Shown one piece after another: positions 8,197 through 50,226 of a DNA stretch of 64,000 bases. A model generated the notes under the pieces. It was not told the DNA's origin, ran no database searches, and was given only the letters and a program-made list of their open reading frames with translations. Position 1 is the stretch's first letter. Each line of letters begins with the position of its first letter. Both the position numbers and the translations under genes were made by a program. The stretch lies in the NCBI RefSeq assembly GCF_009363655.1, contig NZ_CP045393.1, positions 1,736,001 to 1,800,000 on the forward strand. Direction: 5' to 3'. This DNA is from Roseovarius sp. THAF27. GTDB lineage: Bacteria > Pseudomonadota > Alphaproteobacteria > Rhodobacterales > Rhodobacteraceae.

Positions 8197-8736
8197 TCAG
8201 GCCTCGCGCCACGTGCCGGGATCGAGCCCGTCCAGCGTGAAATCGCCCACCCGCCAGCGCACCAGCCGCAGGGTGGGGTGGCCCACGTGGGCCGTCATGC
8301 GGCGGACCTGCCGATTGCGGCCTTCTGATATGGTGATTTCCAGCCAGCAATCGGGCACGGATTTGCGGAATCGGACCGGCGGGTCGCGCGGCCAGAGGTC
8401 GGGCGGGTCGATGCGGCGGGCCTTGGCGGGCCGGGTAGGACCGTCCTTGAGCGTCACGCCTTTCGCCAGCGCGTCGAGCGCGGCGGCATCGGGGTCGCCC
8501 TCGACCTGCACTAGGTAGGTTTTCTCGGTCTTGAATTTCGGGTTCGACAGGCGCGCCTGCAGCTTGCCGTCATCGGTCAGCAGCAAGAGCCCTTCGCTGT
8601 CGCGGTCGAGCCGCCCGGCGGGGTACACACCCGGCATGTCGATATAGGCCGAGAGCGTGGGGCGCGGACTGCCTTGCGTGCCCTTGTCGGTGAATTGCGA
8701 CAGGACGCCCATGGGTTTGTTGAAGAGGATCAGCAT
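8197..8736 (-). CDS. rluE: 23S rRNA pseudouridine synthase, RluE type
   Basis: A 179-residue RsuA/RluB/E/F family enzyme that isomerises uridine in rRNA. It starts [17 protein letters not shown], and the catalytic aspartate lies in the motif [15 protein letters not shown] (about 41-55). The conserved tail [10 protein letters not shown] is also present. It has no N-terminal S4 domain, which matches RluE (YmfC), the enzyme for a single uridine in domain V of 23S rRNA. Site specificity is inferred from the family. Confidence 0.88.
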
Positions 8737-8750
8737 GGGGGGCGGGGGGT

Positions 8751-8791
8751 GGTGGGGTGAAACCCCGTCAAGGTGGGGTGAAACCCCACCC
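8751..8791. terminator. Tandem GGTGGGGTGAAACCCC hairpins between rluE and trpE
   Basis: Two copies of the same unit lie at 8751-8766 and 8772-8787. The second extends to a perfect hairpin, GGTGGGGT-GAA-ACCCCACC (8772-8790). It abuts the trpE stop codon and can fold on both strands, so it probably ends transcription from trpE. No clear T-run follows. The unit also looks like a dispersed intergenic repeat of roseobacters. Confidence 0.55.
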
Positions 8792-10302: not shown

Positions 10303-10313
10303 CGCGTCCGCCT

Positions 10314-12155: not shown

Positions 12156-12206
12156 GTGGCCTCCCCCGGGGCTGCTCTTGCGGTTCAGGCCTGTCTAAGG
12201 CCGGTT

Positions 12207-35265: not shown

Positions 35266-36008
35266 CCAGCTATACCCCGTTTTCCTACATCGTCATCAAT
35301 CTGGCCCGCCTGATCCGCCCGTCAGAGGTGACTTTCTCCGGTGTGAACTCGACCCTTCCGATGCTGGCCTGCCTGGTCGCGAAACGGGCCTACGACTTCG
35401 ACTTCACATGGCTGAACGTCGCCGGCGGGGTCGATGCGGAGCTGGCGGGGCCGGTGCCGCTGTCGTCGGGGGACGCGGCCCTTACCGCGGGCTCGCGCTC
35501 GATCTTCGCCAACGAGGATTTCTACGACCTTTGCACGCGCGGCGGCATGGACCTGTGTTTCCTGGGCGCGAGTCAGATCGACGGCACCGGGGCGACCAAC
35601 AACTCGGTCATCGGTGACTGGGACAGCCCCAAGGTGCGCCTGCCGGGCGGCGGTGGATCGGCCGTCATGATGCCGACGCTGAAGCGGGCCGCCACGTGGC
35701 GGACGGAACATTCGACGCGCACGCTGGTCAACACGCTGTTTTTCCAGACCGCAAAGGGCAATCTGCAATCCGTCGTCACGCCGATGTGCGTCTTCGACAA
35801 GAGGGACGGGCGGCTTGCGGTGGCCTCGCATCACCCGGATGTTACGCTGGACGACATACGGGCCGCGACCGGTTTCGAAACCGACATGTCGCAGGCCGGT
35901 CCAACCCCCGAACCCACCGCGGCGGAATTTGCGGCGCTTCGGGCGCTGGATCCCGATGGGACATTCGAAGCGGATGCGGCGGTTCGAATGCCGGAGTTGG
36001 CCGCATGA
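35262..36008 (+). CDS. CoA-transferase family I, subunit B (GctB/IpdB-like)
   Basis: A 248-residue beta subunit. The LPGGGGSAVMMPTLKRA segment (about 127-143) and the HHPDVTLDDIRAATGFE tail (about 189-205) match the GctB/IpdB class. I do not see the E-x-G motif with the catalytic glutamate of true transferases in the expected N-terminal part, where the sequence reads AGPVPLSSGDAAL. This favours an IpdB-like role. It pairs with the preceding A subunit. Confidence 0.86.
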   Translation: MTSYTPFSYIVINLARLIRPSEVTFSGVNSTLPMLACLVAKRAYDFDFTWLNVAGGVDAELAGPVPLSSGDAALTAGSRSIFANEDFYDLCTRGGMDLCFLGASQIDGTGATNNSVIGDWDSPKVRLPGGGGSAVMMPTLKRAATWRTEHSTRTLVNTLFFQTAKGNLQSVVTPMCVFDKRDGRLAVASHHPDVTLDDIRAATGFETDMSQAGPTPEPTAAEFAALRALDPDGTFEADAAVRMPELAA

Positions 36009-37489
36009 GTGATTTCGTCACCGCATTCGAGCAACAGGCGCGACTACGCGGAGACGCGCCGGCATTGTCCGCGGACGGGCAGACGGTAGGCTATGCCACG
36101 CTGCACGCCAGGGTCGTGGCCCGTGCCGGGGCAATGCTGGCCTCGGGCCTTGTTCCCGGCGACCGGGTCGCCTTGTTGCAGGATCGCAGCGTGGATCTTT
36201 GCACGGACCTTCTGGCCTGTCTGCACGCCAGGCTGCCACTGACCGTTCTGAGCCGGAGCGAGGCGCAAGGCTCGGTCGTGGCCAAGCTGGTCGATGGTGG
36301 TTTTACAGGTTTGATCTGTGACGACACCAACCGGGAGGCGGCGCAGGCGCTGGCCGACGCGGCCGGATTGCGCGTCGTGACACCGCCTGTGCCGGAAGAT
36401 GCCACCGGCCGCTACACGGTCCCGGTTCCAAGCGCCGAAGAGGAAGCTTTGCTGATCTTTACGTCCGGTTCCAGCGGACGTCCTAAGGCCGTGCGGCTGA
36501 GCCACGGAAACATCGCGGCGAATACGCGGGGATTGTCGGACATCACGCCGGTGGGTGCTGATGATCATTACCTGCACATGATGCCCCTGAGCCATACCAA
36601 CGGCATTCTGAACCAACTGCTTTATCCATTGATGCGCGGCGCGCAGATTACCTTGCTGCCGCGCTTCACGCCGGAAGCCGCGCTGGACGCGATGGCGGAC
36701 CTCAAGCCCACCGTTGTCACCGGTGTGCCGACGATGTTCCAAAGGTTGCTGGATCATCCGATCCCGCAAGGGTCGACGGACCGGCTGCGCATGCTTCGCT
36801 GCGGCTCGGCGCCGCTGGCGGTCGAAACACAGGACCGGATCGAAGCGCATCTGGGCTGCCAGGTTCTGGTGAGCTATGGGCAAACGGAGTTTACCTGCAC
36901 ATCGACCGCCAATCCGCCGGGCGCGGCCCGGCGCGGCTCTGTCGGGCGCGCCATTCCTGGTGCCGAGGTGGCAATTCTTGAACCTGCCGGGGACACGCCC
37001 TTGCCGATCGAAAGCCGCGGCGAAGTGGCGTTCCGCGGTCCGTTGTCCGCTCTTGGCTATGTCGGCCATCCCCCGTTCGACCCGGAGGGCTGGGTCAGAT
37101 CAGGGGATCTGGGATATCTCGACGCAGATGGCTATCTTTTCCTGACCGGCCGCCTGAAGGAGATCATCATACGCGGTGGTGAAAACCTGGCTCCCGCAAG
37201 CATAGAGGATGTGCTGCTTGCAAGCCCGGGTATCCGGGCGGCTTGCGTGGTGCCCGCGCCACATGCCGATCTCGGAGAAGTGCCGTTCGCTTTCGTGGAA
37301 GGCACGAGCCAGATCGAGGCTCTTGACGACTTGAACCGAAAGATCCGGGACGCACTTGGCCGCGCCCATTGTCTGGCCGGGATCGAACGCGTGGACCGCC
37401 TGCCGGAAAACCATGTCGGCAAGATTGACCGCAAGCGACTGACGGCAAAGCTGTCGCAACGGATGTCCCCGGCACTGACCGGCGGCTGA
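36005..37489 (+). CDS. AMP-dependent acyl-CoA synthetase/ligase
   Basis: A 494-residue ANL-family enzyme that adenylates a carboxylic acid and joins it to CoA. Motifs in order: LIFTSGSSGRPKAVRLSH (about 149-166, P-loop), VSYGQTEFT (about 291-299), RSGDLGYLDADGYLFLTGR (about 363-381) and GGENLAPASIED, with the C-terminal lysine in HVGKIDRKRL. It ends the island operon (4-base overlap with subunit B) and probably activates the imported substrate. Confidence 0.93.
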   Translation: MSDFVTAFEQQARLRGDAPALSADGQTVGYATLHARVVARAGAMLASGLVPGDRVALLQDRSVDLCTDLLACLHARLPLTVLSRSEAQGSVVAKLVDGGFTGLICDDTNREAAQALADAAGLRVVTPPVPEDATGRYTVPVPSAEEEALLIFTSGSSGRPKAVRLSHGNIAANTRGLSDITPVGADDHYLHMMPLSHTNGILNQLLYPLMRGAQITLLPRFTPEAALDAMADLKPTVVTGVPTMFQRLLDHPIPQGSTDRLRMLRCGSAPLAVETQDRIEAHLGCQVLVSYGQTEFTCTSTANPPGAARRGSVGRAIPGAEVAILEPAGDTPLPIESRGEVAFRGPLSALGYVGHPPFDPEGWVRSGDLGYLDADGYLFLTGRLKEIIIRGGENLAPASIEDVLLASPGIRAACVVPAPHADLGEVPFAFVEGTSQIEALDDLNRKIRDALGRAHCLAGIERVDRLPENHVGKIDRKRLTAKLSQRMSPALTGG

Positions 37490-37527
37490 GGCCGGTCGGT
37501 GCGGCCATCGCACGGGGCGGTTTCGGC

Positions 37528-38415
37528 TCAGCCCGCGTCGATCAGCGCCATAAGCGCTTCGACTGCCCGGGTGCGATGCCGTTCCGGATGCGACAGCACG
37601 GTAAACGGACGCTCCGGTCGCGGTGCCCAGGTCACGCGGCGCTGGTGGACTGCACCGTCTTCCGCCAGCGCGTCGACGACGCGTCGTGACACCATGGACA
37701 CGCAGTCGCTGCCCGCCACTGCCGACAACACCGCTTCGTTCGACGGGATCTCCAGCAGGACCGCAAGGTCATCCCGGCACAGCCCCAACTGGGCAAGGTG
37801 AACTTCGACCTCGGCGCGTGTTCCCGAGCCTTCTTCCCGCATCACCCAGTCGAGCTTGCGATAGGTTTGGGCTGACATCGCGCCGCGGGCTGCGGGATGT
37901 CCGCGCCGCATCACCAGAACCAGTTCATCGCGTGCCACTACCCGTGTACGCAGGTCGCCATGCACGACCTCGCCTTCGACGAAACCCAGGTCGGCAGCAC
38001 CGTCCGCCACGGCCCTGGCAACGCTTGACGTATTGCCCACGCTCAGCCGCACGGCGAGGTCGGGATGTGCCTGCCTGAGCCGTACCAGAACCGGGGGGAG
38101 GAAATAGGTCGCGACCGTCTGGCTGGCCTCGATCCGAAGTCGCCCCCTTGGCCGCGCCGAGAGATCATCAAGGATCAGTTCCGCGGTCTCTGCTTGGTTC
38201 AGAACGCTTTCGGCGGCGGGCACGAACTTGCGGCCTGCTTCGGTGAGGGTGATGCCGCGGCCGACACGGTCGAAAAGCTGCACCCCATGAGTGCTCTCCA
38301 GCGCGCGCAGGGCGGCCGAGACGGCGGATTGTGTCATCTTCAGCGCCTCCGCCGCGCGGGTGACATGGGCGCGTTCGGCGACTTCAAGAAATATGCGGAG
38401 CTGGTCCAGAGTCAA
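37528..38415 (-). CDS. LysR family transcriptional regulator (YeiE/CysB-like)
   Basis: A 295-residue LysR regulator: HTH at about 1-60 (TQSAVSAALRALESTHGVQL) and a substrate-binding domain from about 90. The start is TTG 38415; an in-frame stop lies directly upstream. It is divergent from a yeiH-like gene across a 96-base AT-rich region, the same pairing as yeiE-yeiH in enterobacteria, so it probably controls that gene. It converges on the island operon. Confidence 0.9.
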   Translation of the reverse strand: MTLDQLRIFLEVAERAHVTRAAEALKMTQSAVSAALRALESTHGVQLFDRVGRGITLTEAGRKFVPAAESVLNQAETAELILDDLSARPRGRLRIEASQTVATYFLPPVLVRLRQAHPDLAVRLSVGNTSSVARAVADGAADLGFVEGEVVHGDLRTRVVARDELVLVMRRGHPAARGAMSAQTYRKLDWVMREEGSGTRAEVEVHLAQLGLCRDDLAVLLEIPSNEAVLSAVAGSDCVSMVSRRVVDALAEDGAVHQRRVTWAPRPERPFTVLSHPERHRTRAVEALMALIDAG

Positions 38416-38511
38416 TCATCAATCCAATCGATTAATACGTTCGATATTAGTTAATTTAATGAACAATGCAATTAAGGCAGTTTGCAGGCGCAGACACCGA
38501 GGAGGTACGCC

Positions 38512-39543
38512 ATGCAAACCCTGAGCCAACGCGCACACCCCGGTGCGCTCCAAGACCTCTACGCGCACTTGCCCGGATTGGCACTGGTCATGGCGATCAC
38601 CGCCATCGCCACGCTTGTGCAGAGGGCGACCGGGCTGGCGGCGCTCAGCCCGCTGGTCGTTGCCCTGCTGCTCGGAATCGGCTGGCGTGTCGCCGTGGGC
38701 AGCCCGCCCTTGCTGCAGCCCGGTATCCGGTTTGCCCTCAAGCCAGTCCTGCGCGTTGCGATCGTATTGCTGGGGCTTCAGGTCACGGTCGGAGAGGTGT
38801 CTACCCTGGGCTTGCGCGGTGTTGTTGCGGTCACGACGACCCTGGCCGCGACATTTGCATTCACATGCCTGCTTGGCCGTCTGCTGGGCGTGGAAAACCG
38901 GCTGGCACAGTTGATCGCTGCGGGGACGTCGGTGTGCGGTGCGTCTGCGGTTCTGGCGTGCAACGCGGTGACACGAGGATCGGACGAAGACGTTGCCTAT
39001 GCCATCGCCTGCGTCACGCTGTTCGGGACGAGCGCGATGCTGCTTGGGCCGATGGCGGCTCACATGCTGGAGCTCACACCGGAAACCTACGGTTTTTGGG
39101 CGGGCGCGACAGTGCACGAAGTGGCCCAGGTCGTGGGCGCTGCCTTCGCAATGGGCGAAGACGCCGGGCACGTCGGTACCGTGACCAAGCTGACCCGGGT
39201 CCTGCTGCTTGCGCCTCTGATCCTGACGCTGGGCGTCTTGCAGTTCCGCCGAGGCGGTCAGCGGGCTTCCGGCTCCAAGATTACGATCGTGCCGTGGTTC
39301 GTGCTTGGGTTCGTGATTCTGATGGGGGTCAATTCGCTGGTGAGCTTGCCGGGCCGGCTGCACGATGCCACGGTGACGCTGACGGCGTTGATGCTGACGG
39401 CGGCGCTGGCAGCGATGGGGCTGGAGACAGACTTGCGCCGGCTGCGCCAAAAGGGCCTGCGCCCGTTGGTGCTGGGTGGGTCGGCTTGGATCTTCATCGC
39501 GACCCTGGGATTGGGCTTGTCGCTTTGGGCAATGGCGGGATAA
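38512..39543 (+). CDS. yeiH: YeiH/UPF0324 putative sulfate exporter family membrane protein
   Basis: About 343 residues with roughly ten hydrophobic helices. Family signatures are LRVAIVLLGLQVTV (about 79-92) and GTSVCGASAVLACNAV (about 138-153). ATG 38512 is preceded by GAGGAGGT; the frame is open 30 bases further upstream. The family is annotated as putative sulfate exporters, and some members neighbour sulfur or sulfonate genes. The substrate is unproven. It is the last intact gene of the island. Confidence 0.88.
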   Translation: MQTLSQRAHPGALQDLYAHLPGLALVMAITAIATLVQRATGLAALSPLVVALLLGIGWRVAVGSPPLLQPGIRFALKPVLRVAIVLLGLQVTVGEVSTLGLRGVVAVTTTLAATFAFTCLLGRLLGVENRLAQLIAAGTSVCGASAVLACNAVTRGSDEDVAYAIACVTLFGTSAMLLGPMAAHMLELTPETYGFWAGATVHEVAQVVGAAFAMGEDAGHVGTVTKLTRVLLLAPLILTLGVLQFRRGGQRASGSKITIVPWFVLGFVILMGVNSLVSLPGRLHDATVTLTALMLTAALAAMGLETDLRRLRQKGLRPLVLGGSAWIFIATLGLGLSLWAMAG

Positions 39544-39622
39544 GCGATACAAGATATTGAGGCCATTCTTGCATGCTCTCTCAGAGTGTAGCCGAAATGG
39601 ATGGTCTATTGTCCAAGTCCTC

Positions 39623-39665
39623 TGACTCCCACATGAGGCCACGTAAGCGCGATGCATGTGGGAGT
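39623..39665. promoter_or_regulatory. Inverted ACTCCCACAT motifs at the right island end
   Basis: GACTCCCACAT (39623-39633) and its inverse ATGTGGGAGTT (39655-39665) flank 21 bases. They are the same motif as the tandem copies at 25491-25514, now inverted. They probably form the right-arm sites for recombination. Confidence 0.5.
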
Positions 39666-39705
39666 TGAAAAATGTAACAATTTGTTTTTCCAGAATTTTG
39701 TGAGA

Positions 39706-39761
39706 ATTCAAAATCCCCCGGTGTGATACCGTGCCGGTTCGAGTCCGGCCTTGGGTACCAA
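39706..39761 (+). repeat. Right attachment repeat (attR), partial tRNA-Leu copy
   Basis: A 56-base copy of the tRNA-Leu 3' half, from ATTCAAAATCCCCCGG to the CCA and one A more. It matches 25379-25435 except for one missing A in the variable arm. It lacks the tRNA 5' half, so it is not a functional tRNA. Confidence 0.92.
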
Positions 39762-39831
39762 CCCCTTCGAGGGCTTGCGCCCCGGGTGTTCAATCGCCTG
39801 CCTTATGGCGGTGTACGTTCCCCCCTCACAG

Positions 39832-39868
39832 GACTTCCAGATCATTCCTTGAAAAACCGCGTTTGCGC
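39832..39868 (-). pseudogene. Relic of a second integrase 3' end
   Basis: These 37 bases match the integrase end at 25504-25540 at 28 positions, including the DNA just past the stop. Read on the minus strand they give AQTRFFKE-stop, against AQKRRFKE-stop in the island integrase. No integrase coding follows upstream. It suggests that an older, related element used the same tRNA site. Confidence 0.4.
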
Positions 39869-40027
39869 GGGGGGCGACGAACAATTGCAGGCGGGCAGGG
39901 ACGCGGTGCCGCCTTGGCTGAAGGTGGAGCGATGCCGAGGAATGGTTCGTTGCGTGGCGCAAGAAACACCTGAACAAATCCAACTCGCTCACGGGACTTT
40001 CATCCCGACCCGGACCGCGGCGGCGCG

Positions 40028-41509
40028 CTATTCTATCAGCGCGCCGGGATTCATGATGTTGTTGGGGTCGATGGCCTGCTTGATCTGGCGCAGCACGGCC
40101 ATCTTGCTGGGACTTGCATGTTTCTGCAGGTCTTGGCGTTTCAGGCGGCCGATCCCGTGTTCGGCGCTGATCGACCCGCCCAGCGCCAGCGTCGCCTCGT
40201 TGATCGCGCCCCGCACGCGGTTGGCGATGCCGGGGTGGGCCTGCAGGAAATCGGCCTTCGAGATGCCTGTCGGCGGAAACACGTTGTGGTGAATGTTCCC
40301 GTCGCCGATGTGACCATAGCTGTTCGTCCGCAAGCCCTCGTGAACGCCGGTAATCGCCGCGTGCGTTCCCGACACGAACGCGTCGATCTGGCCGATCGGG
40401 ACCGCGGTGTCGCTGCTGCAGAACGCGCCGGTCTTGCGGTTGGCGTCGGGCGTATGCTCGCGCAGCGACCAGAGCGCGCTGCGCTGCGCCTCGGATTCGG
40501 CCATCACGACGTCGACGACGAAACCCTGCTCGATACACTCCGCCAGCACCGCCTCGGTCTCATCCCGCACGCCCGGGTTCCCCGCGGCATCGATCAGCAG
40601 GTACCAGGGGTGGTCGTCGGCAAAGGGGTTTCTCAGCGTCGGGAAATGTTCGCAAACAAGGCCCACGCCGAAGCCGCTCATCAATTCCATCCCGTTCATG
40701 CGGTTGCCGATGGCCGTGCGCAGGGCCCGCAGCACCCGCAAGGCATCCGCCGGCGACGTGATGGCGCAAAAGGCCGTCACGGCCTCGGGGTCCAGCGGCT
40801 TCAACGTCAGGCTGGCGGCGGTGATGATGCCAAGGGTGCCTTCGCTGCCGATCAGCAGGTGCCGCAGGTCATAGCCGGTGTTGTTCTTGCGCAGGGGGCT
40901 CAACTCTTCCAGCACGTCGCCCGACGGCATCACCGCCTCGATCCCCACGCAGAGGTCGCGGGCATTGCCGTGGCGCAGCACCTGGATGCCGCCCGCGTTC
41001 GTGGCCAGGTTTCCGCCGATGGTGCAACTGCCCTTCGAGGCCATGCTGAGCGGGAACATCAGGTCGTGCCGCTCGGCCTCGGCGTGGATGTTCTCCAGCA
41101 CGCAGCCGGCCTCGGCCACCATCACGAAATCGTCCGGCGACACGCTGCGCACCCGGTTCATCCGCTCCAGCGACAGGATGATGGCCGCGTCGCTGTCCAG
41201 CGAAAGCTGCCCCGCGACCACGCCGGTGCCCCCGCCATAGGGGATGATCGCGATGCCGGCGCTATTGCACAGCCGCACGACCTGCGACACCTGTTGGGTG
41301 GTTTCGGGCAGGACAACGATACAGTCCTTGCCGGTGAAGCTGCCGCGCGGGTCTTCATAGTATCGCGCGGCATCCGGGCCCGACTTGCAGGCGGTCTCCC
41401 CGACAATCGCCCTGATATCATTCAAAGTTCTGTCTTCCGCGGTCTTGAAAGCCACCAACTGCCCGATGCTCCTGTCGTCCGATCCTCGTTCGGGCTCATT
41501 CTGTGGCAA
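40028..41509 (-). CDS. FAD-linked D-2-hydroxyacid dehydrogenase (GlcD / VAO family)
   Basis: A 493-residue FAD-binding oxidoreductase. The PCMH-type FAD domain includes IIPYGGGTGVVAGQ (about 90-103) and GGNLATNAGGIQVLRHGN (about 165-182); the C-terminal FAD_oxidase_C domain ends SAEHGIGRLKRQDL. Relatives oxidise D-lactate, glycolate, D-2-hydroxyglutarate or sulfolactate. Start is uncertain: TTG 41509 is used here, with TTG/GTG near 41455 possible. With the ComDE/TTT/TarD genes across the LysR gene, a 2-hydroxy dicarboxylate or sulfolactate is a plausible substrate. Confidence 0.88.
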   Translation of the reverse strand: MPQNEPERGSDDRSIGQLVAFKTAEDRTLNDIRAIVGETACKSGPDAARYYEDPRGSFTGKDCIVVLPETTQQVSQVVRLCNSAGIAIIPYGGGTGVVAGQLSLDSDAAIILSLERMNRVRSVSPDDFVMVAEAGCVLENIHAEAERHDLMFPLSMASKGSCTIGGNLATNAGGIQVLRHGNARDLCVGIEAVMPSGDVLEELSPLRKNNTGYDLRHLLIGSEGTLGIITAASLTLKPLDPEAVTAFCAITSPADALRVLRALRTAIGNRMNGMELMSGFGVGLVCEHFPTLRNPFADDHPWYLLIDAAGNPGVRDETEAVLAECIEQGFVVDVVMAESEAQRSALWSLREHTPDANRKTGAFCSSDTAVPIGQIDAFVSGTHAAITGVHEGLRTNSYGHIGDGNIHHNVFPPTGISKADFLQAHPGIANRVRGAINEATLALGGSISAEHGIGRLKRQDLQKHASPSKMAVLRQIKQAIDPNNIMNPGALIE

Positions 41510-41546
41510 ACATGATCTTTAGCAAGGCAAGATAATTTACGATTAT

Positions 41547-42452
41547 CTAAGCTATCTCTTTAGAAACGGTGTGCCCGCCATGCGCCGCGACCGTCCGGGT
41601 CAACTCGTCCAGAAACCGCTCGACCAGCCGGTATTTCGAACAATCCGCCCGGCTGAGGACGCCCAGCGTACGCGACGGCGCCGTGGGCCCCAGCGACAGC
41701 TTGCGCAGGCTGCCGAAGATCGGGTCGGGCACGCAGAAATCCGGCCCGATCGACACGCCCAGGTCATGCGCCACCATGCTCGCGATCGTGTCGAGCGAGC
41801 TCATCTCCATCATGTCGCGCACCTTCAGCCTGCTTCGCGCCAGCCAGTCCTCGGCCATCACCCCGATGGCCGACAGCGCGCTGTGCCGGATGAAGGGCCT
41901 GGCCGACAGGATGCGCTCGGGGTCGGTTTCGGTCACCTCCACCGAGGTGAGCAGCACCAGCTTTTCCACCGCGAAGGGCGTCCAGGTCATCGTGGCCGGC
42001 GTCCGGCTTGGCGCGCTGACCAGCGCGGCATCGACGGTGCCCGTCTCGACCATCTCCTGCAAGGTCGGGCTGAGGCCCGGCACAACCCGGATGCGCAAGT
42101 CGGGATACTGTCCGATCAGCCCCTTCATCGCCTTGGGCACAAGCCCGCGCAGCGTCGATGGCACCGCCCCCAACACGATATCCCCGATCAGGCGCGGATC
42201 GCCGGTCAGATCGTCGAGGATCGTCTCGTAGGCGGCGACAACCTCCTTGGCCTTGGGCACCATCGCGCGGCCCAGCTGATTGAGGCGCGGGGATTTCTGC
42301 GAGCGGTCGAACAGCGCCACGCCCAGCGTTTCCTCCAGCCGCTTCATCTGCTGGCCGACCGCCGCATGGGTGACGCAGACGCGGTCCGCGGCGGCGTTGA
42401 AACTGCCTTCCTCGGCGACGGCGATAAGGGTCTTGAACAGCGTGATCGACAT
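41547..42452 (-). CDS. LysR family transcriptional regulator
   Basis: A 301-residue LysR protein, HTH at about 1-62 (CVTHAAVGQQMKRLEETLGV) and effector domain after about 90. It lies between the dehydrogenase gene (same strand, 37 bases downstream) and the divergent ComD gene, separated by 142 bases. This central position makes it the likely regulator of the whole cluster, induced by the substrate or an intermediate. Confidence 0.92.
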   Translation of the reverse strand: MSITLFKTLIAVAEEGSFNAAADRVCVTHAAVGQQMKRLEETLGVALFDRSQKSPRLNQLGRAMVPKAKEVVAAYETILDDLTGDPRLIGDIVLGAVPSTLRGLVPKAMKGLIGQYPDLRIRVVPGLSPTLQEMVETGTVDAALVSAPSRTPATMTWTPFAVEKLVLLTSVEVTETDPERILSARPFIRHSALSAIGVMAEDWLARSRLKVRDMMEMSSLDTIASMVAHDLGVSIGPDFCVPDPIFGSLRKLSLGPTAPSRTLGVLSRADCSKYRLVERFLDELTRTVAAHGGHTVSKEIA

Positions 42453-42594
42453 GGCAGGGCGCTTTCACAACAGGATCAAAGGCACGATTTACTAAAGCAG
42501 ACATTTACAAATGGGAAAAGATTGTTGGTTTGTTAAAGCTTCTCTTATCGCGCAAGATCATCAAACATGAACGTATCGAGGGGGAGGCCTGCGC

Positions 42595-43092
42595 GTGAGC
42601 ATCGACGCAAAGATCGTCGCGGATCTGGTCAAGCACGAGGTCGGACTGGTCACGACCGTCCCCTGCAAACAGCTTGCCGGAGTCATTGCGGAAATCGACC
42701 GATGCGAGGACATCCACCACATCCCCGCGAACAAGGAGGACGAAGGCATCGGCATCTGCGCCGGCGCCTTCATGGGCGGCAAGCGGTCCGCGATCATCAT
42801 GCAGAACACCGCGCTTGGCGTGACGGTCAACACGCTGGTGACGCTGACACAGTTCTACCGGATGCCGCTGCCGATGCTGATCTCCTATCGCGGAGAACTG
42901 GGCGAGCCGGTGGCCTGCCAGGTGGAAATGGCCGTGCACACCAAGGCGCTGCTGAATCAGCTTCACATCCCGACCTATCACTTCCATCATGAGTCCGACG
43001 CCGAAGAACTGGACCGGATCCTGCAATACACCTTCATGTGCATGAAACCGGTCGCGATCCTGACGGATGCCACCTTCTGGAAAGGATACTGA
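42595..43092 (+). CDS. comD: Sulfopyruvate decarboxylase-like subunit alpha (ComD), TPP PYR domain
   Basis: A 165-residue protein equal to the N-terminal (PYR) half of a TPP-dependent decarboxylase. The conserved glutamate that activates TPP lies in PANKEDEGIGICAG (about 44-57), followed by MQNTALGVTVNTL. The start is GTG 42595 behind a GGGGAGG site. In methanogens and some sulfonate degraders ComDE converts sulfopyruvate to sulfoacetaldehyde. Here oxaloacetate, made by the TarD-like enzyme, is an alternative substrate of the same shape. Confidence 0.85.
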   Translation: MSIDAKIVADLVKHEVGLVTTVPCKQLAGVIAEIDRCEDIHHIPANKEDEGIGICAGAFMGGKRSAIIMQNTALGVTVNTLVTLTQFYRMPLPMLISYRGELGEPVACQVEMAVHTKALLNQLHIPTYHFHHESDAEELDRILQYTFMCMKPVAILTDATFWKGY

Positions 43093-43093
43093 C

Positions 43094-43657
43094 ATGATCC
43101 GATCCGACGTCCTGCGCTCGCTGCTCCCGCTGATCTCGGACCATTTCGTCGTCTGCAACATCGGTCTGCCCAGCCAGGAACTGCACATGCTGGATGACCA
43201 GCCGACCAATTTCTACATGCTGGGCACGATGGGCCTTGCCTCGTCCATCGGGCTGGGCGTGGCGCTGGCGCAGTCGAAAAAGGTCATCTCGATCGACGGC
43301 GACGGCTCGGTGCTGACCAATTTCGGCACTTTGCCCACCATCGCCAACAACGTGGCCGACAATTTCATCCTGCTGATCATCGACAACGGCAGCTATGGCT
43401 CCACCGGCGACCAGCCGACCTATGCCGGCATGAAGACCTCGCTGGCAAAGGTGGCCGAGGCCTGCGGATGCGAAAACGTCATCGAGTGCCAGGCCGAAGA
43501 CTGCGCAGCCGTCATGAAAGACGCGCTGGACAGTGACAGGATGACCGTGATCGTGTGCAAATGCGAAAGCGGCAACATCCCCGTGTCGGTCATCAAGACT
43601 GATCCGGTGGTGATCCGCGACCGGTTCATGACCGCGTTGAAGGAGGCCAACGCATAA
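43094..43657 (+). CDS. comE: Sulfopyruvate decarboxylase-like subunit beta (ComE), TPP-binding domain
   Basis: A 187-residue C-terminal (PP) half of the enzyme. The TPP/metal motif runs from SIDGDGSVLTNFG (about 74-86) to the asparagine in LLIIDNGSYGSTG (about 98-110), the GDG-x-N pattern. ATG 43094 starts MIRSDVLRSL, one base after the ComD stop. The length equals known ComE proteins. It must pair with ComD to be active. Confidence 0.87.
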   Translation: MIRSDVLRSLLPLISDHFVVCNIGLPSQELHMLDDQPTNFYMLGTMGLASSIGLGVALAQSKKVISIDGDGSVLTNFGTLPTIANNVADNFILLIIDNGSYGSTGDQPTYAGMKTSLAKVAEACGCENVIECQAEDCAAVMKDALDSDRMTVIVCKCESGNIPVSVIKTDPVVIRDRFMTALKEANA

Positions 43658-43703
43658 TCAAGACGGCGAAAACGCCGATAGTCAGCAACTCTGGGAGGAA
43701 AAC

Positions 43704-44660
43704 ATGCTGAAAAGAACATTTCTGAAGATGGGCGCGGCGCTGGCCGTGACCGCATCGCTGGCAACGGGCGCCGCTGCCGCCGAACTCAACGGGCCGGTCA
43801 ACTATATCATCCCGTTCGGCCCCGGGGGAGAATCCGACATTTCCGCACGTTTCCAGCAACCGTTCTTCAAGGACAAGTTCGGCCAGGACATGGTGATCTC
43901 GTACCAGCCCGGCGGCGGCGGTGCGGTGGCATGGGCCACGCTCAACGGCCTCAGCGATGACGGCCAGACGATCATGGGCGTCAACCTGCCCCATATCATC
44001 ATCAAGCCGGCGCAAAAGGACGTGGGATTCACCACCGAGGACCTGAACGTCTTCCACATGTTCCACTTCACGCCGGATGCGATCATCGTGCGCGCCGACA
44101 GCCCCTACCAGACGCTCGAAGACCTGGTCGAGGACGCCAGGGCGAACCCGGCGCAGGTCACCATGTCGGGCTCGGGCAAGGCCACGGCCAACCACCTTGC
44201 GCATATCAAGTTCGACAAGATGGCCGATATCCAGACCACCTATGTGCCCTTCAAAGGCACCGGAGCGGCCGTGACCGCGCTTCTGGGCAACCAGGTCAAG
44301 GCCGAATGGGGCTATTCCACCGTCGCCGCGACCCAGGGCGAAGAGGTGCGGATGCTCGCCGTCGCGATGGAGGAACGCCACCCGCTTTTCCCGGACGTGC
44401 CGACCTTCAAGGAGCTGGGCTATGACATGGTGGGCGGCGCCTATCGCGGGATCGCCCTGCCGAATTCCGCCACCGACGAGGTCACGCAGATGTGGTCCGA
44501 CATGATCGCCGAGATCAACAACGACCCCGAGTTCCGCCAGCAGATGCTGGATAACGGCTTTGCGATGCTCGATGTCGAAGCGGACGGCATGGACGATTTC
44601 ATGGCCGCGCGCAGCGAGGAATATCTCAGCGACGCGCGCGAAGCGGGCCTGATCGACTAA
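43704..44660 (+). CDS. Tripartite tricarboxylate transporter substrate-binding protein (TctC/Bug)
   Basis: A 318-residue periplasmic binding protein. A signal peptide (about 1-28, ending AAAAEL) precedes the family motif NYIIPFGPGGESDISAR. GGAGGAAAAC lies just before ATG 43704. Bug proteins bind carboxylates such as citrate, malate, tartrate-like acids or sulfolactate. It is the first of three transporter genes and probably supplies the cluster with its substrate. Confidence 0.92.
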   Translation: MLKRTFLKMGAALAVTASLATGAAAAELNGPVNYIIPFGPGGESDISARFQQPFFKDKFGQDMVISYQPGGGGAVAWATLNGLSDDGQTIMGVNLPHIIIKPAQKDVGFTTEDLNVFHMFHFTPDAIIVRADSPYQTLEDLVEDARANPAQVTMSGSGKATANHLAHIKFDKMADIQTTYVPFKGTGAAVTALLGNQVKAEWGYSTVAATQGEEVRMLAVAMEERHPLFPDVPTFKELGYDMVGGAYRGIALPNSATDEVTQMWSDMIAEINNDPEFRQQMLDNGFAMLDVEADGMDDFMAARSEEYLSDAREAGLID

Positions 44661-44684
44661 GCTGACCGCGCAAAGGCCCGACAC

Positions 44685-46187
44685 ATGGAATTCGGTCACT
44701 TCCTGTCCGCCCTCACACCGTTCAACCTCGTTCTGGCGTTGTTCGGTGTCGTGGCGGGCACTGTCGTCGGCTCGATTCCGGGCCTTACCGCAACGATGGC
44801 GCTGGCCGTGCTTGTGCCGATCACGTTCAGCATGGATCCCGCCTCGGCGCTGATCCTCCTGGGCGCGATCTATACCGGGGCGATCTACGGCGGGGCTTAC
44901 GCGGCGATCCTGCTGAACACGCCCGGCACGCCCTCGGCCATCGCCACCACGTTTGACGGCTACCCGATGGCGAAACGCGGCGACGGCGACCTTGCCGTTG
45001 CACTCGCCTGTTTCGCCTCGGTCGTCGGCGGGCTGGTGGGGGCATTCTCGCTTTTGCTGCTGGCGCCGCCCCTGTCGAAGGTGGCGCTGGCCTTCGGGCC
45101 GATCGAATATTTCTGGCTGTCGATCTTCGGCCTGTCGCTCATCGCGTCGCTGTCCACCGGCAACCTCATGAAGGGGCTGGCGGGGGGTGCCTTCGGGATG
45201 CTGCTGTCCACCGTCGGCGTGGCCGAGGTCTCGGCCGATATCCGGCTGACCTTCGGCAGCCAGATGCTGGTCGGCGGTTTCGGCGTCATCGGCGCGCTGA
45301 TCGGCCTTTACTGTATCCCGGTGCTGATCGACCTCGTCGCGACGCCCGACCGCCACCTCAAGATGGAAGAGGACGTGCGCTCGGTCCGCATCGGCGAGGC
45401 GTTCCGCATCGCCGCGCGCTCCAAGATCAACCTGATCCGGTCCTCGGTCATCGGTACCCTGATCGGTATCCTGCCCGGCGCGGGCGGCTCTGTGGCCGGC
45501 CTCGTCGCCTATTCCGAGGCCAAGCGCACCGGCAAGCCGCACCAGAAATTCGGCGAGGGCGAGCCAGACGGCATCCTCGCCACGGAATCCGCTAACAACG
45601 CCACCGTGGGCGGCGGCTTCATCCCGACGCTGGTGCTGGGTATTCCCGGCACGCCGCCCGACGCCATCGTGCTGGGCGCTCTGTTGGTGCAGGGCGTGCG
45701 CACCGGCCCCACGATGTTCAGCCAAAGCGGCTCAATCGTCTTTACCTTCATCTACGGCCTCCTGATCGCCACGGTGCTGATGCTGCCCGCGGGCCTGCTG
45801 ATCGGGCGCTACGCCTACAAGTCGATCGTGAACATCCCCAAGGCCGTTCTCGTGCCCACCGTGGGCTTCATGACCATCATCGGCACGTTCTCGATCCGCA
45901 ACAGCGTGACGGATGTCATCCTGATGCTGGGCCTCGGCGTCTTCGGCTGGGTCGTGGGGCGCTTCGGCTTCGCCGCCTCGCCCATCGTGCTGGGCCTGAT
46001 CCTCGGCCCCATCGCCGAACAGGGCTTCGTGCAGGGCTGGACCATCGGCTCGGCCACGGGCAACCTTTTCGGGATGTTCTTCGGGCGGCCCATCTCGCAG
46101 GGGATCATCGCGTTCACGCTGATCACCCTCATCCTGCCGCTCTACACGGCACGCCGGCGCCGCAGGAAAGAACGGGAGCAGACCTGA
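44685..46187 (+). CDS. Tripartite tricarboxylate transporter large permease TctA
   Basis: A 500-residue membrane protein with about 12 helices. TctA signatures are VGSIPGLTATMALAVLVP (about 27-44), YGGAYAAILLNTPGTPSAIA (about 67-86) and IGILPGAGGSVAG (about 261-273), followed by LVLGIPGTPPDAIVLGA. It forms the channel of the TTT importer. Its stop overlaps the next start by one base (TGATG). Confidence 0.94.
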   Translation: MEFGHFLSALTPFNLVLALFGVVAGTVVGSIPGLTATMALAVLVPITFSMDPASALILLGAIYTGAIYGGAYAAILLNTPGTPSAIATTFDGYPMAKRGDGDLAVALACFASVVGGLVGAFSLLLLAPPLSKVALAFGPIEYFWLSIFGLSLIASLSTGNLMKGLAGGAFGMLLSTVGVAEVSADIRLTFGSQMLVGGFGVIGALIGLYCIPVLIDLVATPDRHLKMEEDVRSVRIGEAFRIAARSKINLIRSSVIGTLIGILPGAGGSVAGLVAYSEAKRTGKPHQKFGEGEPDGILATESANNATVGGGFIPTLVLGIPGTPPDAIVLGALLVQGVRTGPTMFSQSGSIVFTFIYGLLIATVLMLPAGLLIGRYAYKSIVNIPKAVLVPTVGFMTIIGTFSIRNSVTDVILMLGLGVFGWVVGRFGFAASPIVLGLILGPIAEQGFVQGWTIGSATGNLFGMFFGRPISQGIIAFTLITLILPLYTARRRRRKEREQT

Positions 46188-46642
46188 TGCCAGACCATCA
46201 ACGCCACCCGGACGGCCATATCGGATCGCTGGTGATTTCCGCGCTTTTCGTGCTCATGGGGATCATCGCCCTTTACGACACCACCGGCTATTCCGACCGC
46301 GACAGCCAGGTGTTTCCCCGCACCGTCGCGATCATGATGATCCTGACGGCCGGCCTATCGCTGATCACGCGCTTCCTGCATCCCAGCGACAGCGGCGGCT
46401 TCGGCACAGGCACGTGGTGGCGCCGGGTCCTGCTGGTCGTGGCCATGTTCGCGGGCTGCCTTGCCATCCCGCATATCGGCTTTCTGGCCAGCGGCGCCAT
46501 CGCCTTCGCGGGCGGGCTCATTGCGGCGATGCATGACAGGTGGACGCCGATCACCGCGCTGCTCTACGCAGGCTGCGGCGCAGCGGTGATGATCGCGTTC
46601 CTCGCTCTGTTCCGCTACGTCCTGCACGTCCCGCTTCCGTGA
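46187..46642 (+). CDS. Tripartite tricarboxylate transporter small permease TctB
   Basis: A 151-residue protein with four hydrophobic helices (about 11-30, 42-60, 79-97 and 119-145), the size and layout of TctB. The N-terminus has a short charged lead (MPDHQRHPDGHIGS). It completes the TctC-TctA-TctB set. Confidence 0.9.
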   Translation: MPDHQRHPDGHIGSLVISALFVLMGIIALYDTTGYSDRDSQVFPRTVAIMMILTAGLSLITRFLHPSDSGGFGTGTWWRRVLLVVAMFAGCLAIPHIGFLASGAIAFAGGLIAAMHDRWTPITALLYAGCGAAVMIAFLALFRYVLHVPLP

Positions 46643-46697
46643 CATCGGGCACCTGACAGAAACTGGCGCGACACCAGCCCGAACAAGGAACACGCCC

Positions 46698-47861
46698 ATG
46701 AAAATCGTCGACATCCGGGAAGTGACCAAGCCGATCGCGTCGCCCATCCGCAACGCCTATATCGACTTCAGCAAGATGACGGCAAGCCTGGTGGCCGTCG
46801 TGACGGACGTGATCCGGGACGGACGCCGCGTGGTCGGCTACGGCTTCAACTCCAATGGCCGCTACGGGCAGGGCGGTCTCATCCGCGAACGCTTCCGCGA
46901 CCGCATCCTAAACGCCGACCCCGCATCGCTGCTGAACGACGAGGGCAGCAACCTGGACGCACACAAGATCTGGGCGGCCATGATGCAGAACGAAAAACCC
47001 GGCGGCCACGGCGAACGTTCGGTCGCGGTCGGCACCATCGACATGGCCGTCTGGGACGCCATCGCCAAGATCGAGGAAAAGCCCCTCTTCCGCCTGCTGG
47101 CCGACCGCATGGGACGCAAGGCGGACCCGCGCGTCTTCGTCTATGCCGCCGGGGGCTATTATTATCCGGGCAAGGACGATACCGCGCTGTGCAATGAGAT
47201 GCGCGGCTACCTCGACCGCGGCTATACCGTGGTGAAGATGAAGATCGGGGGCGCGTCCATCGACGAAGACAAGCGCCGGATCGAGGCGGTGCTGACCGAA
47301 ATCGGAACCCAGGCGCAGCTGGCCGTCGATGCAAACGGACGCTTCGACCTCGAGACCGCGATCGCCTATGCCAAGATGCTGCGGCAATACCCGCTCTTCT
47401 GGTTCGAGGAAATCGGTGATCCGCTGGACTATCAGCTACAGGCCGCGATGGCCGAATTCTACCCCGCTCCCATGGCGACCGGCGAAAACCTGTTCTCGCA
47501 TCAGGACGCGCGCAACCTGATCCGCCATGGCGGAATGCGGCCCGACCGGGACTGGCTGCAATTCGACTGCGCGCTGTCCTACGGGCTTGTGGAATACCTG
47601 CGCACGCTCGATGTCCTCGATGAACTCGGCTGGTCCCCGTCGCGCTGCATCCCGCATGGCGGCCACCAGATGTCCCTGAACATCGCGGCCGGGCTCGGTC
47701 TCGGCGGCAACGAAAGCTATCCCGATCTCTTCCAGCCCTACGGTGGCTTCCCGGACGGCGTGCAGGTCGAGGAGGGGCACATCCTCATGCCCGACCTGCC
47801 GGGTATCGGTTTCGAAGGCAAATCAGATCTGATCGACGTGATGCGCGCGCTGGCAGAGTGA
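46698..47861 (+). CDS. tarD: D(-)-tartrate dehydratase-like enolase superfamily enzyme (TarD)
   Basis: A 387-residue enolase-superfamily dehydratase. Its catalytic residues line up with Bradyrhizobium TarD at a constant offset of two: Lys182 (KMKIG), Asp211 (VDANGRF), Glu237 (WFEEIGDP), Glu263 (MATGENLF) and His320 (IPHGGHQM). Long stretches such as GYGFNSNGRYGQGGLIRER also match my memory of TarD. The reaction is D-tartrate to oxaloacetate plus water. It follows tctB by 55 bases and ends the cluster. Confidence 0.9.
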   Translation: MKIVDIREVTKPIASPIRNAYIDFSKMTASLVAVVTDVIRDGRRVVGYGFNSNGRYGQGGLIRERFRDRILNADPASLLNDEGSNLDAHKIWAAMMQNEKPGGHGERSVAVGTIDMAVWDAIAKIEEKPLFRLLADRMGRKADPRVFVYAAGGYYYPGKDDTALCNEMRGYLDRGYTVVKMKIGGASIDEDKRRIEAVLTEIGTQAQLAVDANGRFDLETAIAYAKMLRQYPLFWFEEIGDPLDYQLQAAMAEFYPAPMATGENLFSHQDARNLIRHGGMRPDRDWLQFDCALSYGLVEYLRTLDVLDELGWSPSRCIPHGGHQMSLNIAAGLGLGGNESYPDLFQPYGGFPDGVQVEEGHILMPDLPGIGFEGKSDLIDVMRALAE

Positions 47862-47912
47862 ACAGCGTTGGCGGTGCAGGCGAAGACGGGCTTGCCCGCA
47901 GTCTTATGGATG

Positions 47913-49952
47913 CTAGCGCCGCTTCGGTCCCGGTTTTTCCGTCGACGCTCTTTTTAGCGCCGCGCGCGCCCGGTTCTTCTTGCTGCTGGGCTTGCCTTTG
48001 GGCGGCGGCGGACCCTTGCCAGCGTGCTTGGAGCCAGGTTTGCCACCGGCCTTGGCCTTCCCGGCTTTGCCTGCGTCTTCCGGCGTGTCCTTGGCGACCC
48101 GCGCCCCGTGTCGGGGTTTGCCCAAGGGGCCATGCACCGCCGGATCGGACGTCTTCGCCTCGCGCTTTTGCGCCGGGGATTTCGTGTCCTTGCGGTCCTC
48201 GGGCTTGGGTTTGCGGCGGCGCGGTTCGGGCGTGTCGTTCCAATCGACGGGCCTTGTGTCCCCCTTGAGAGGCCCCGGCTCGCCCTTGGACCGGCGCTCC
48301 GGCTTGCCGGGCCGGAAGGGCGGCAGGTCCGGTGCCGCGTCGAGGCGACGAAGCTGTTTGTGTCCCTCTATCGTCATCCCCGGGCCGATCGCCTCCAGGA
48401 AATCGGGCACGCTGGCCTCGCGGATCTCGACATAGGACAGGTCATCGGCGACGCGGATCGCCCCGATATCGTCCTTGCTCAACCCGCCCGCTTTGCAGAT
48501 CATCGGCAGCAGGTGCCGGGGCGAGGCCGCCTGGTTGCGCCCTTCGGACAGCGAGAACCAGACGCTGGGGCCGAACGCGGCACGCGGTTTCGGCTTGTCA
48601 GGCTTGCCGGTACTGACCGGGCTCAGGTCCTCGGGGGCGGAATGGCGCAGCTTGTACTGGCGCAGGTAGGCGGCGGCGATCTGCTCGGGCGTGAAGCGTT
48701 CAAGCAGTTGATCCACCGACGCGCGCTCGCCCTCGGTGATCTCCGCCTGCCAGTCATCGGCCTCCAGCATGCGCACCTGATCCTGCGCGTCCACATCCGC
48801 CGCCGACGGCGCGGCGGTCCATTCCGCGGTCAGCTTGGCGAATTTCAGGATGCGCTCCGCCTTCTTGCGGGCCGAGGGCACGACAATGAGCGCACTGACC
48901 CCCTTGCGCCCCGCGCGGCCGGTGCGGCCCGAGCGGTGCAGAAGAGTCTCATGGCTGCTGGGCAATTCGGCATGGACCACCAGGTCCAGCTTTGGCAGGT
49001 CGATGCCCCGCGCGGCGACGTCCGTGGCCACGCAGACCCGCGCGCGCCCGTCGCGCATGGCTTGCAGCGCGTTCGACCGTTCGCTCTGTGTCAACTCCCC
49101 CGACAGGGCCACGACCGGGAACCCCCGGTTCGACAGCCGCGTCGTCATCCGCGCGACCATCGCCCGTGTGTTGCAAAAGACGATGGCATTGGGGGCCTCG
49201 TAATAGCGCAGCACGTTGATGACCGCGTTCTCGTTGTCATGCGCCGCCACCGACATCGCACGGTAGGCGATATCCGAATGCTGCGCCTGCGCGCCGACGG
49301 TCGAGATCCGCTCGGCATCACGCTGGTAGCTTTGCGCCAGCTTGGCGATGGCGGTAGGAACCGTGGCCGAGAACAGCAGCGTCTGTCGCGCCTCCGGCGT
49401 CTGCTCCAAGATGAACTCCAGGTCCTCGCGAAAGCCGAGGTCCAGCATCTCGTCCGCTTCGTCCAGCACCGCCGCCCGCACCGCCGACAGGTCGATCGAC
49501 CCGCGCATGATGTGATCCCGCAGCCGCCCCGGCGTGGCCACGACGATATGGGCGCCGCGCGCCAGCGCCCGCCGCTCGTCCCGCATGTCCATGCCGCCCA
49601 CGCAGGAGGCCAGCACCGCGCCCGCATCGGCGTAAAGCCAGGCAAGCTCTCGCTTGACCTGCATGGCAAGCTCGCGGGTGGGCGCCACGATCAGCGCCAG
49701 CGGGGCATCGGCCTGACCGAATGTGTCCGCGTCGTCCAGCAGGGTGGAGGCTATCGCCAGCCCGAATCCGATCGTCTTGCCGGATCCGGTCTGTGCCGAG
49801 ACCAGCAGGTCGCGGCCCTGCAACTCCGGTTGGGTCACGGCCTGCTGGACAGGGGTCAAAACGTCATAGCCCTTACGGGCCAGCGCATTCGCAAGGGTGT
49901 GTTTCAAGAGGTCTATGCTTTTCTTGGGAAAGAGGTGGGGGCCGAGCGGCAT
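47913..49952 (-). CDS. DEAD-box ATP-dependent RNA helicase with DbpA-type RNA-binding domain
   Basis: A 679-residue helicase. Motifs: Q-motif region near 30-40, Walker A AQTGSGKT (53-60), PTRELAMQ, VATPGR, DEAD in VLDEADEMLDLGF, SAT in LFSATVPT, and HRSGRTGRAGRKG. A DbpA-like RNA-binding domain lies at about 490-570 (WFSLSEGRNQAASPRHLLP). The last ~110 residues are a basic Lys/Pro-rich tail. It probably remodels rRNA or mRNA. It converges on the TarD gene. Confidence 0.95.
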   Translation of the reverse strand: MPLGPHLFPKKSIDLLKHTLANALARKGYDVLTPVQQAVTQPELQGRDLLVSAQTGSGKTIGFGLAIASTLLDDADTFGQADAPLALIVAPTRELAMQVKRELAWLYADAGAVLASCVGGMDMRDERRALARGAHIVVATPGRLRDHIMRGSIDLSAVRAAVLDEADEMLDLGFREDLEFILEQTPEARQTLLFSATVPTAIAKLAQSYQRDAERISTVGAQAQHSDIAYRAMSVAAHDNENAVINVLRYYEAPNAIVFCNTRAMVARMTTRLSNRGFPVVALSGELTQSERSNALQAMRDGRARVCVATDVAARGIDLPKLDLVVHAELPSSHETLLHRSGRTGRAGRKGVSALIVVPSARKKAERILKFAKLTAEWTAAPSAADVDAQDQVRMLEADDWQAEITEGERASVDQLLERFTPEQIAAAYLRQYKLRHSAPEDLSPVSTGKPDKPKPRAAFGPSVWFSLSEGRNQAASPRHLLPMICKAGGLSKDDIGAIRVADDLSYVEIREASVPDFLEAIGPGMTIEGHKQLRRLDAAPDLPPFRPGKPERRSKGEPGPLKGDTRPVDWNDTPEPRRRKPKPEDRKDTKSPAQKREAKTSDPAVHGPLGKPRHGARVAKDTPEDAGKAGKAKAGGKPGSKHAGKGPPPPKGKPSSKKNRARAALKRASTEKPGPKRR

Positions 49953-50226
49953 TCAGGCCGTCGGCAAGTGCCGGGCATTATTCGCTCGGGCCACCTTTGT
50001 ACAGGCACTAATCAGCTTTTCTGAATAACTTTGTTCAGTGAAGTACCGATAGACGTCAGGAACGCAGTTTGGCACACACGCCGACCGACGCACGAACTTG
50101 TCGCGGGCGACCGGCCTCGTATGCCGATGATATCACTGATGGATGTGTGGTCTGCGGTTTCGGCCCGTAGAAAGGCCGAAGTTTTGACGGCCCCAATCCA
50201 AGGGCCGCCAATATGACGCGGGTCGC

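Follow-up and report, generated by a model that had tools for sequence, protein, structure and literature searches.

A portable Roseovarius gene block that probably serves sulfolactate catabolism and carries a predicted D-tartrate dehydratase

Composition of the block and proposed route

In a window of 64,000 nucleotides of Roseovarius sp. THAF27 (contig NZ_CP045393.1, positions 1,736,001 to 1,800,000), a block of eight genes combines a predicted sulfopyruvate decarboxylase (ComDE), an importer of the tripartite tricarboxylate transporter (TTT) family, a dehydrogenase dependent on flavin adenine dinucleotide (FAD), a LysR-type regulator, and an enolase-superfamily protein of the D-tartrate dehydratase (TarD) type. 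We conclude that this block is probably a portable operon for the catabolism of sulfolactate, with D-tartrate entering as a side branch. The sulfolactate half is well supported by sequence and is known in kind, as it resembles the route of Roseovarius nubinhibens; the FAD enzyme and TarD are what make the variant new. The use of both sulfolactate and D-tartrate, one of two options offered in a preliminary description of the block, is the best reading and gives TarD its likeliest role. The proposal draws on the family of ComDE, the clade of the importer, the presence of xsc, cuyA and hpsN in the genome, the catalytic residues of TarD, and the recurrence of the block as a unit. The features are as follows (window coordinates).

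40014..47895, no strand: whole block, homologous to four other Roseovarius contigs, the flanks not
40028..41509, minus: FAD-dependent D-2-hydroxyacid dehydrogenase (kin of GlcD and D-2-hydroxyglutarate dehydrogenase), proposed sulfolactate dehydrogenase; FAD_binding_4 and FAD-oxidase_C, structures 3pm9 and 6lpn
41547..42452, minus: LysR-type regulator, divergent from comD; family match, relatives adjoin ComDE in other loci
42453..42594, no strand: intergenic region of 142 bp between lysR and comD, by its geometry likely a shared control region
42595..43092, plus: comD, predicted sulfopyruvate decarboxylase alpha subunit; narrowly over the TIGR03845 cut-off
43067..43657, plus: comE, predicted sulfopyruvate decarboxylase beta subunit; over the TIGR03846 cut-off, PF02775
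43704..44660, plus: TctC-type binding protein, SlcH type; family match, placed by the TctC tree with binding proteins of sulfolactate loci
44685..46187, plus: TctA-type large permease of the same importer; family match and TctA tree
46187..46642, plus: TctB-type small permease; family match, order C-A-B as published for slcHFG
46698..47861, plus: tarD-type D-tartrate dehydratase (enolase superfamily, MR_MLE), predicted; match to Bll6730 and catalytic residues

All eight genes that the preliminary description had placed at these coordinates are open frames, and each has a profile match to the family assigned there. From comD to tarD, the genes share a strand and are separated by -26, 46, 24, -1 and 55 bp; because of this short, co-directional spacing they are likely to form one operon. 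The FAD gene and lysR, 37 bp apart, run in the opposite direction and are read from the divergent 142-bp region. The regulator would co-regulate the block; relatives with 47-62% identity adjoin ComDE in five other loci (L127, L128, L131, L132, L156).

In the proposed route, the SlcHFG-type importer would bring in 3-sulfolactate, and the FAD dehydrogenase would oxidise it, probably as the D-configured (S) enantiomer, to sulfopyruvate, which ComDE would decarboxylate to sulfoacetaldehyde. The gene for Xsc lies in another part of the genome with a phosphotransacetylase-family frame; the enzyme would convert sulfoacetaldehyde to acetyl phosphate and sulfite, and acetyl-CoA would be formed from acetyl phosphate; CuyA, likewise encoded elsewhere, would open a second branch. 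D-tartrate, which resembles sulfolactate, would enter by the same importer and most likely be converted to oxaloacetate by TarD.

The block as a portable unit

Nucleotide homology of about 90-95% to contigs of R. atlanticus, R. confluentis, Roseovarius sp. MMSF_3281 and Roseovarius sp. A-2 (L015-L018) begins at 40014-40024 and ends at 47862-47895, with the left edge varying between contigs by at most 10 bp and the right one by at most 33 bp. Outside the block just two short matches were seen, one of 59 bp between the L016 flank and the block, the other of 290 bp (69%) between L018 and window positions 30272-30555. When L015-L018 were compared pairwise, the common stretch was again this block, extended by no more than about 140 bp; the spacer between tctB and tarD differs in L017 (about 100 bp unaligned) and L018 (about 275 bp unaligned). 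In the four other blocks, TarD is 93-96% and the FAD dehydrogenase 92-96% identical to the protein of the window. The eight genes thus recur together in five genomes, including that of the window, with different flanks. As the homology starts and stops at the block edges, the alignments indicate that the association of these genes is more than chance and that the block is portable; since it is shared as a whole while the flanks differ, TarD and the FAD gene belong to the unit.

The G+C content of the block is 63.9%, compared with 64.8% for the window. No tRNA gene that could serve as insertion site was found in 36000-50000, and the repeats detected in 39700-48300 were all short and imperfect; of those listed (20 of 39 direct families, 24 inverted pairs), none links one edge with the other. 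A YeiH-type putative sulfate exporter gene and a divergent second LysR gene (37528-39543) adjoin the block outside its homology limits. They were considered as parts of it and rejected, because the homology to L015-L018 stops short of both; exporters related to the YeiH-type protein sit within the suyAB loci L171, L174, L175 and L186. To the right of the block in R. confluentis (L016, 14768-17467), short inverted matches (38-405 bp, 64-87%) to importer genes of the other blocks were observed; a second TTT gene set is perhaps located there.

ComDE and the sulfonate genes of the host

ComE scores 227.8 bits with TIGR03846 (cut-off 221.5). ComD passes the cut-off of TIGR03845 (147.95) by a small margin with 149.8 bits; ComD of L166, an annotated locus for 2,3-dihydroxypropane-1-sulfonate (DHPS), reaches 146.8 bits and falls below it. 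By family, the predicted activity of ComDE is that of a sulfopyruvate decarboxylase. The preliminary description had found no xsc in the window, in agreement with the genome search, whose sole match over the cut-off (915 bits, cut-off 676) lies elsewhere on the same contig. It had also proposed to look for two further genes. The frame following xsc belongs to the phosphate acetyl/butyryltransferase family and scores 260 bits, below the curated cut-off of 282, as does an acetate-kinase-like frame beside xsc with respect to its own; a TIGR01722 dehydrogenase (646 bits), the candidate for malonate-semialdehyde dehydrogenase, is present more than 500 kb from the cluster. The host also encodes CuyA (NF052482, 554 bits, cut-off 450) and HpsN (87%). 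A SuyB query gave no match in the host genome; the same query matched 65 of the 394 genomes of its family (Rhodobacteraceae, the host's included) that were searched. Since the ComE of the window is the only one in the host, suyB was not found, and xsc, cuyA and hpsN are present, the ComDE of the window is the sole candidate that emerged for conversion of sulfopyruvate in this organism. The preliminary assignment to sulfolactate is supported by the scores of ComDE, the importer clade described below and these host genes. The cuyA gene adjoins, on the same strand, a second HpsN-like hisD gene (61% to HpsN; L226, G000 C1:498001-518000, positions 7506-9825), possibly another sulfonate route in the host.

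ComE matches of any strength occur in 141 of the 394 genomes; the 84 at about 64% identity or more, the fragments G160 and G334 included, were taken as the ComE set. From 39 of these 84, we extracted 40 loci of 11.8-18 kb, excluding that of the window and including the strongest matches together with a range of weaker ones. The DHPS gene hpsN is found in 21 of them, an alpha-hydroxyacid oxidase of the flavin mononucleotide (FMN) type in 17, and the LysR type of the window in five, four of which also have the oxidase. At the thresholds used, none of the 40 carries TarD, the FAD enzyme or this importer; weak enolase matches (27-30%) in three loci stay below the TarD threshold, and in 14 loci none of the genes sought reached threshold. 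Thirteen plasmid records contain ComE at 64-80% identity, and four annotated plasmid loci share the order tripartite ATP-independent periplasmic (TRAP) importer, hisD (HpsN), short-chain dehydrogenase/reductase, alcohol dehydrogenase, usp, comDE, alpha-hydroxyacid oxidase. This order fits the published route from DHPS via sulfolactate and sulfopyruvate to sulfoacetaldehyde (excerpts of PMC11382572 and PMC11131964). SuyB and ComE appear to avoid each other, as if they belonged to alternative routes: they occur together in two of the 394 genomes versus 13.9 expected (p = 1.9e-5, kinship ignored).

The importer

In the TctC tree, the binding protein of the window falls into a clade of 15 rows (support 100/99), which consists of the five Roseovarius proteins, L176 (beside hpsN), L177, L182, L056 (beside slcC), and six suyAB-linked proteins. 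Proteins of tartrate loci lie outside this clade; so do those of the suyAB-linked loci L171 and L175, which are joined to it at the next node (90/89). A similar grouping appears in the TctA tree, where the joining branch is less well supported (82/98). These trees place the binding protein on the sulfolactate side and suggest an SlcHFG-type importer. The order tctC-tctA-tctB in the window is that stated for slcHFG: the sulfolactate TTT systems of R. nubinhibens and C. salexigens have tctB downstream of tctA (excerpt of PMC5812351).

Relatives of the importer stand beside suyAB in eight of the 22 non-Roseovarius importer loci (L171, L174, L175, L180, L181, L185, L186, L187), their TctA being 63-90% identical to that of the window. 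All eight contain slcC except L187 and comC except L181; locus L176 has hpsN and an hpsO-like gene. The row suyA-suyB-slcC-comC described for Paracoccus wurundjeri is matched in L174, L180, L185 and L186, but in L180 and L185, as in the other loci, the importer follows this row, unlike in P. wurundjeri (excerpt of PMC12421959). None of the suy, slcC and comC genes of the comparison loci has an NCBIfam model over its cut-off. Close relatives of the L171 SuyB are named in their source records partly (2R)-sulfolactate sulfo-lyase subunit beta, partly UxaA family hydrolase, and in two cases D-galactarate dehydratase. Importer relatives also stand beside tartrate dehydrogenase (L019, L173, L188). 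In L177 (4667-7586), an importer relative (TctA 85%) is accompanied by genes of the arylmalonate-decarboxylase and M24 peptidase families and a diaminopropionate ammonia-lyase-like gene, and this importer may serve a different substrate.

The FAD-dependent dehydrogenase

The FAD enzyme is kin of D-2-hydroxyglutarate and D-lactate dehydrogenases (3pm9, 6lpn) and is the likeliest sulfolactate dehydrogenase of the block. According to the Cahn-Ingold-Prelog (CIP) rules, D-configured sulfolactate is (S), so that (S)-sulfolactate is its probable substrate. SlcD and ComC are labelled (R)-sulfolactate dehydrogenases (excerpt of PMC11131964). SPO0597 is usp and SPO0598 is slcD (PMC4334477), and the synteny of this pair with L166-L169, rather than the SlcD sequence, suggests that the published SlcD is an FMN-type alpha-hydroxyacid oxidase. 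When tested for membership in that family, the enzyme of the window proved to be different, namely FAD_binding_4; the best match of the L166 oxidase in the host genome reaches 41%.

Relatives with 58-64% identity occur in three of the 393 other family genomes, one in the tartrate-type locus L173 and two in L178 and L179. The idea that such relatives are rare holds for the 394 family genomes and fails in the wider protein database, where at least 120 relatives with 59-92% identity are listed. L173 (G183, 5944-13377) unites an FAD dehydrogenase, TarD, tartrate dehydrogenase, TTT and an Asp/Glu racemase-family gene, and may be a tartrate locus that serves two or more stereoisomers. In L178 the FAD relative is near two glyceraldehyde-3-phosphate dehydrogenase-type genes and a transketolase gene, and in L179 it adjoins a fucose-isomerase-like gene and a DeoC/LacD aldolase gene.

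The predicted D-tartrate dehydratase

The enolase matches TarD of Bradyrhizobium (Bll6730; PDB 2dw7, 1tzz, 2dw6) over its whole length with 741-744 bits. The residues K180, K182, D211, E237, E263 and H320, which we take to be the catalytic ones, are invariant in 90 of 90 aligned TarD sequences, as are 177 alignment columns in all, irrespective of locus. The enolase thus lies inside the TarD family, as the preliminary description had proposed, and is most likely a working D-tartrate dehydratase.

TarD genes are found near tartrate dehydrogenase genes in L172, L211, L035, L019 and L173. They also occur within sulfolactate loci: in L171 (a Paracoccus aestuarii plasmid), L174 and L175 together with suyAB-slcC-comC, and in the five Roseovarius blocks; in the short contig L056, TarD accompanies slcC. 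In L171 and L175, tarD closes the row, and in L174 it is located close by. Co-occurrence was counted for all 16 family genomes with TarD at E <= 1e-120 (58-100% identity), ignoring kinship and habitat. TarD and this importer share eight genomes versus 0.6 expected (p = 5e-9); the importer set of 15 genomes, from which G179 (47% identity) was left out, mixes tartrate-type and sulfolactate-type loci. With SuyB (65 of 394), TarD shares 11 of its 16 genomes versus 2.6 expected (p = 2.5e-6), with ComE (84 of 394) three of 16 versus 3.4 expected (p = 1). The idea that TarD entered sulfolactate loci several times independently was considered and set aside: a quick tree gives separate branches with many forks open, and a single clade is not rejected by the approximately unbiased (AU) test (p = 0.144). 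In the Paracoccus locus L019, which has TTT and tartrate dehydrogenase, a phage-type integrase gene directly follows TarD (11240-12628).

Weighing the alternatives

Several observations weigh against a sulfolactate operon with a D-tartrate branch. Neither the phosphotransacetylase nor the acetate-kinase frame next to xsc reaches its curated cut-off, and the names SlcC and ComC in the comparison loci were given by family and gene order, again below curated cut-offs. The FAD enzyme does not belong to the oxidase family seen at 17 of the 40 other ComDE loci. One of its relatives (L173) stands beside TarD, tartrate dehydrogenase and TTT without ComDE or suyAB, and two (L178, L179) have neighbours without a known role in sulfonate metabolism. 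As to the tartrate branch, uptake of D-tartrate would have to proceed through an importer whose binding protein groups on the sulfolactate side, and a tartrate dehydrogenase is listed in just two of seven annotated plasmid TarD loci.

It is unlikely that TarD and the FAD gene are passengers without a working link to the rest. Such a role would agree with their absence from the 40 other ComDE loci, but not with the persistence of all eight genes in five genomes with different flanks and the identities of 93-96% (TarD) and 92-96% (FAD enzyme).

We also doubt that the block is chiefly a tartrate or malate locus, in which the FAD enzyme and TarD would act on D-tartrate or D-malate and ComDE would be incidental. 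The composition of L173, with FAD dehydrogenase, TarD, tartrate dehydrogenase and TTT in the absence of ComDE and suyAB, speaks for this possibility. In the block, however, ComDE is first in the operon and the LysR protein has relatives beside ComDE in five of the 40 other loci, the importer groups with sulfolactate loci and not with L173, and the eight genes include no tartrate dehydrogenase.

That TarD takes part directly in sulfolactate chemistry is possible, yet we regard it as unlikely. TarD might act on sulfolactate or a derivative, for example by racemising sulfolactate or, as a lyase, by abstracting the C2 proton and then eliminating sulfite. There is little probability in our estimate for this chemistry itself, and equally little for a direct role of TarD in sulfolactate breakdown in which the FAD enzyme opens the ComDE-Xsc route to the (S) enantiomer; such a role would account for the variety of sulfolactate loci that contain TarD. 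By our stereochemical reading, the groups at C2 of D-tartrate (2S,3S) are arranged as in (R)-sulfolactate, and TarD is found in loci of varied make-up (suyAB-slcC-comC in L171, L174 and L175, slcC in L056, ComDE in the window and L015-L018). In L171 and L175, its gene comes 30 bp and about 20 bp, respectively, after that of the exporter, in the same orientation, and TarD is enriched in genomes with SuyB. Furthermore, five positions differ in frequency between ten sulfolactate-linked TarDs (8-9 of 10) and the 80 others (6-29%), the ten including L173, later found to be a tartrate-type locus. None of these five is among the presumed catalytic residues, however, which are invariant throughout, as are the 177 columns. 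TarD and SuyB are side by side in just two of the 11 shared genomes (G091, G262), and their co-occurrence takes no account of kinship and habitat. In addition, the suyAB loci already possess desulfonation genes, with slcC and comC available for racemisation in L171, L174 and L175, and elsewhere kin of TarD are located near tartrate dehydrogenases.

Very improbable is the second option of the preliminary description, that TarD forms oxaloacetate which ComDE decarboxylates to malonate semialdehyde. Oxaloacetate and sulfopyruvate are isosteric, and a look-alike is used by a sulfopyruvate dehydrogenase, as a methanogen ComC reduces oxaloacetate with 31% of the activity that it shows towards sulfopyruvate (excerpt of PMC5695019). 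The genome also contains the TIGR01722 gene, whose family includes malonate-semialdehyde dehydrogenases (excerpt of PMC12632250); at its distance of more than 500 kb from the cluster, it speaks neither for nor against such a route, and the block itself has no gene for this enzyme. The option finds no support in the 394 genomes, in which TarD and ComE are not associated, nor in the loci: TarD passes the threshold at none of the 40 other ComDE loci, 21 of which have hpsN, and among 83 TarD loci, some of them short, ComDE occurs only in the four Roseovarius ones. Nor does the host support it, which has hpsN, xsc and cuyA and no second ComE.

Relation to known systems and implications

The preferred reading, a sulfolactate operon with D-tartrate as side branch, comes closest to the sulfolactate route of Roseovarius nubinhibens ISM, which Denger and co-workers reportedly described in 2009 and which is said to comprise SlcHFG, SlcD, ComDE, Xsc, Pta and CuyA. 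Common to both are the TTT importer in the order C-A-B, ComDE, and xsc and cuyA in the host genome; the window differs, judged from this description rather than from a comparison of the loci, by a dehydrogenase of the FAD D-2-hydroxyacid type and by TarD. Roseobacter DHPS loci (TRAP importer-hpsN-O-P-usp-comDE-alpha-hydroxyacid oxidase; L166-L169) have ComDE of the same family, but TRAP, hpsNOP and the oxidase where the window has TTT, the FAD enzyme and TarD. The suyAB-slcC-comC loci with an slcHFG-type importer (L171, L174, L175) share kin of the importer and TarD; there, however, desulfonation is by SuyAB, and no SuyB was found in the genome of our host. Bradyrhizobium Bll6730 (PDB 2dw7) is matched over its whole length with the presumed catalytic set conserved, whereas TarD of the window stands in a putative sulfolactate operon.

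In the literature searched, which covered few subscription journals, we found no description of TarD in sulfolactate loci and no paper that treats sulfopyruvate decarboxylase together with tartrate. When P. wurundjeri grows on sulfofucose, whose degradation passes through sulfolactate, nine proteins of a fumarate/tartrate metabolism cluster are up, with a TauE homologue, and a link of this cluster to the Krebs cycle was suggested by the authors (excerpt of PMC12421959). These tartrate enzymes may be unrelated to TarD.

Sulfolactate and DHPS have been described as metabolic currencies of the sulfur cycle (excerpt of PMC11382572). If our proposal is true, the joining in one portable block of a sulfolactate operon, a D-tartrate dehydratase and an FAD dehydrogenase of the opposite stereochemical type would account for the ability of one strain to use both enantiomers as well as a carboxylate that resembles them. 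The occurrence of TarD among sulfolactate genes raises the question whether this enolase, or this importer, treats sulfolactate and tartrate as alternatives.

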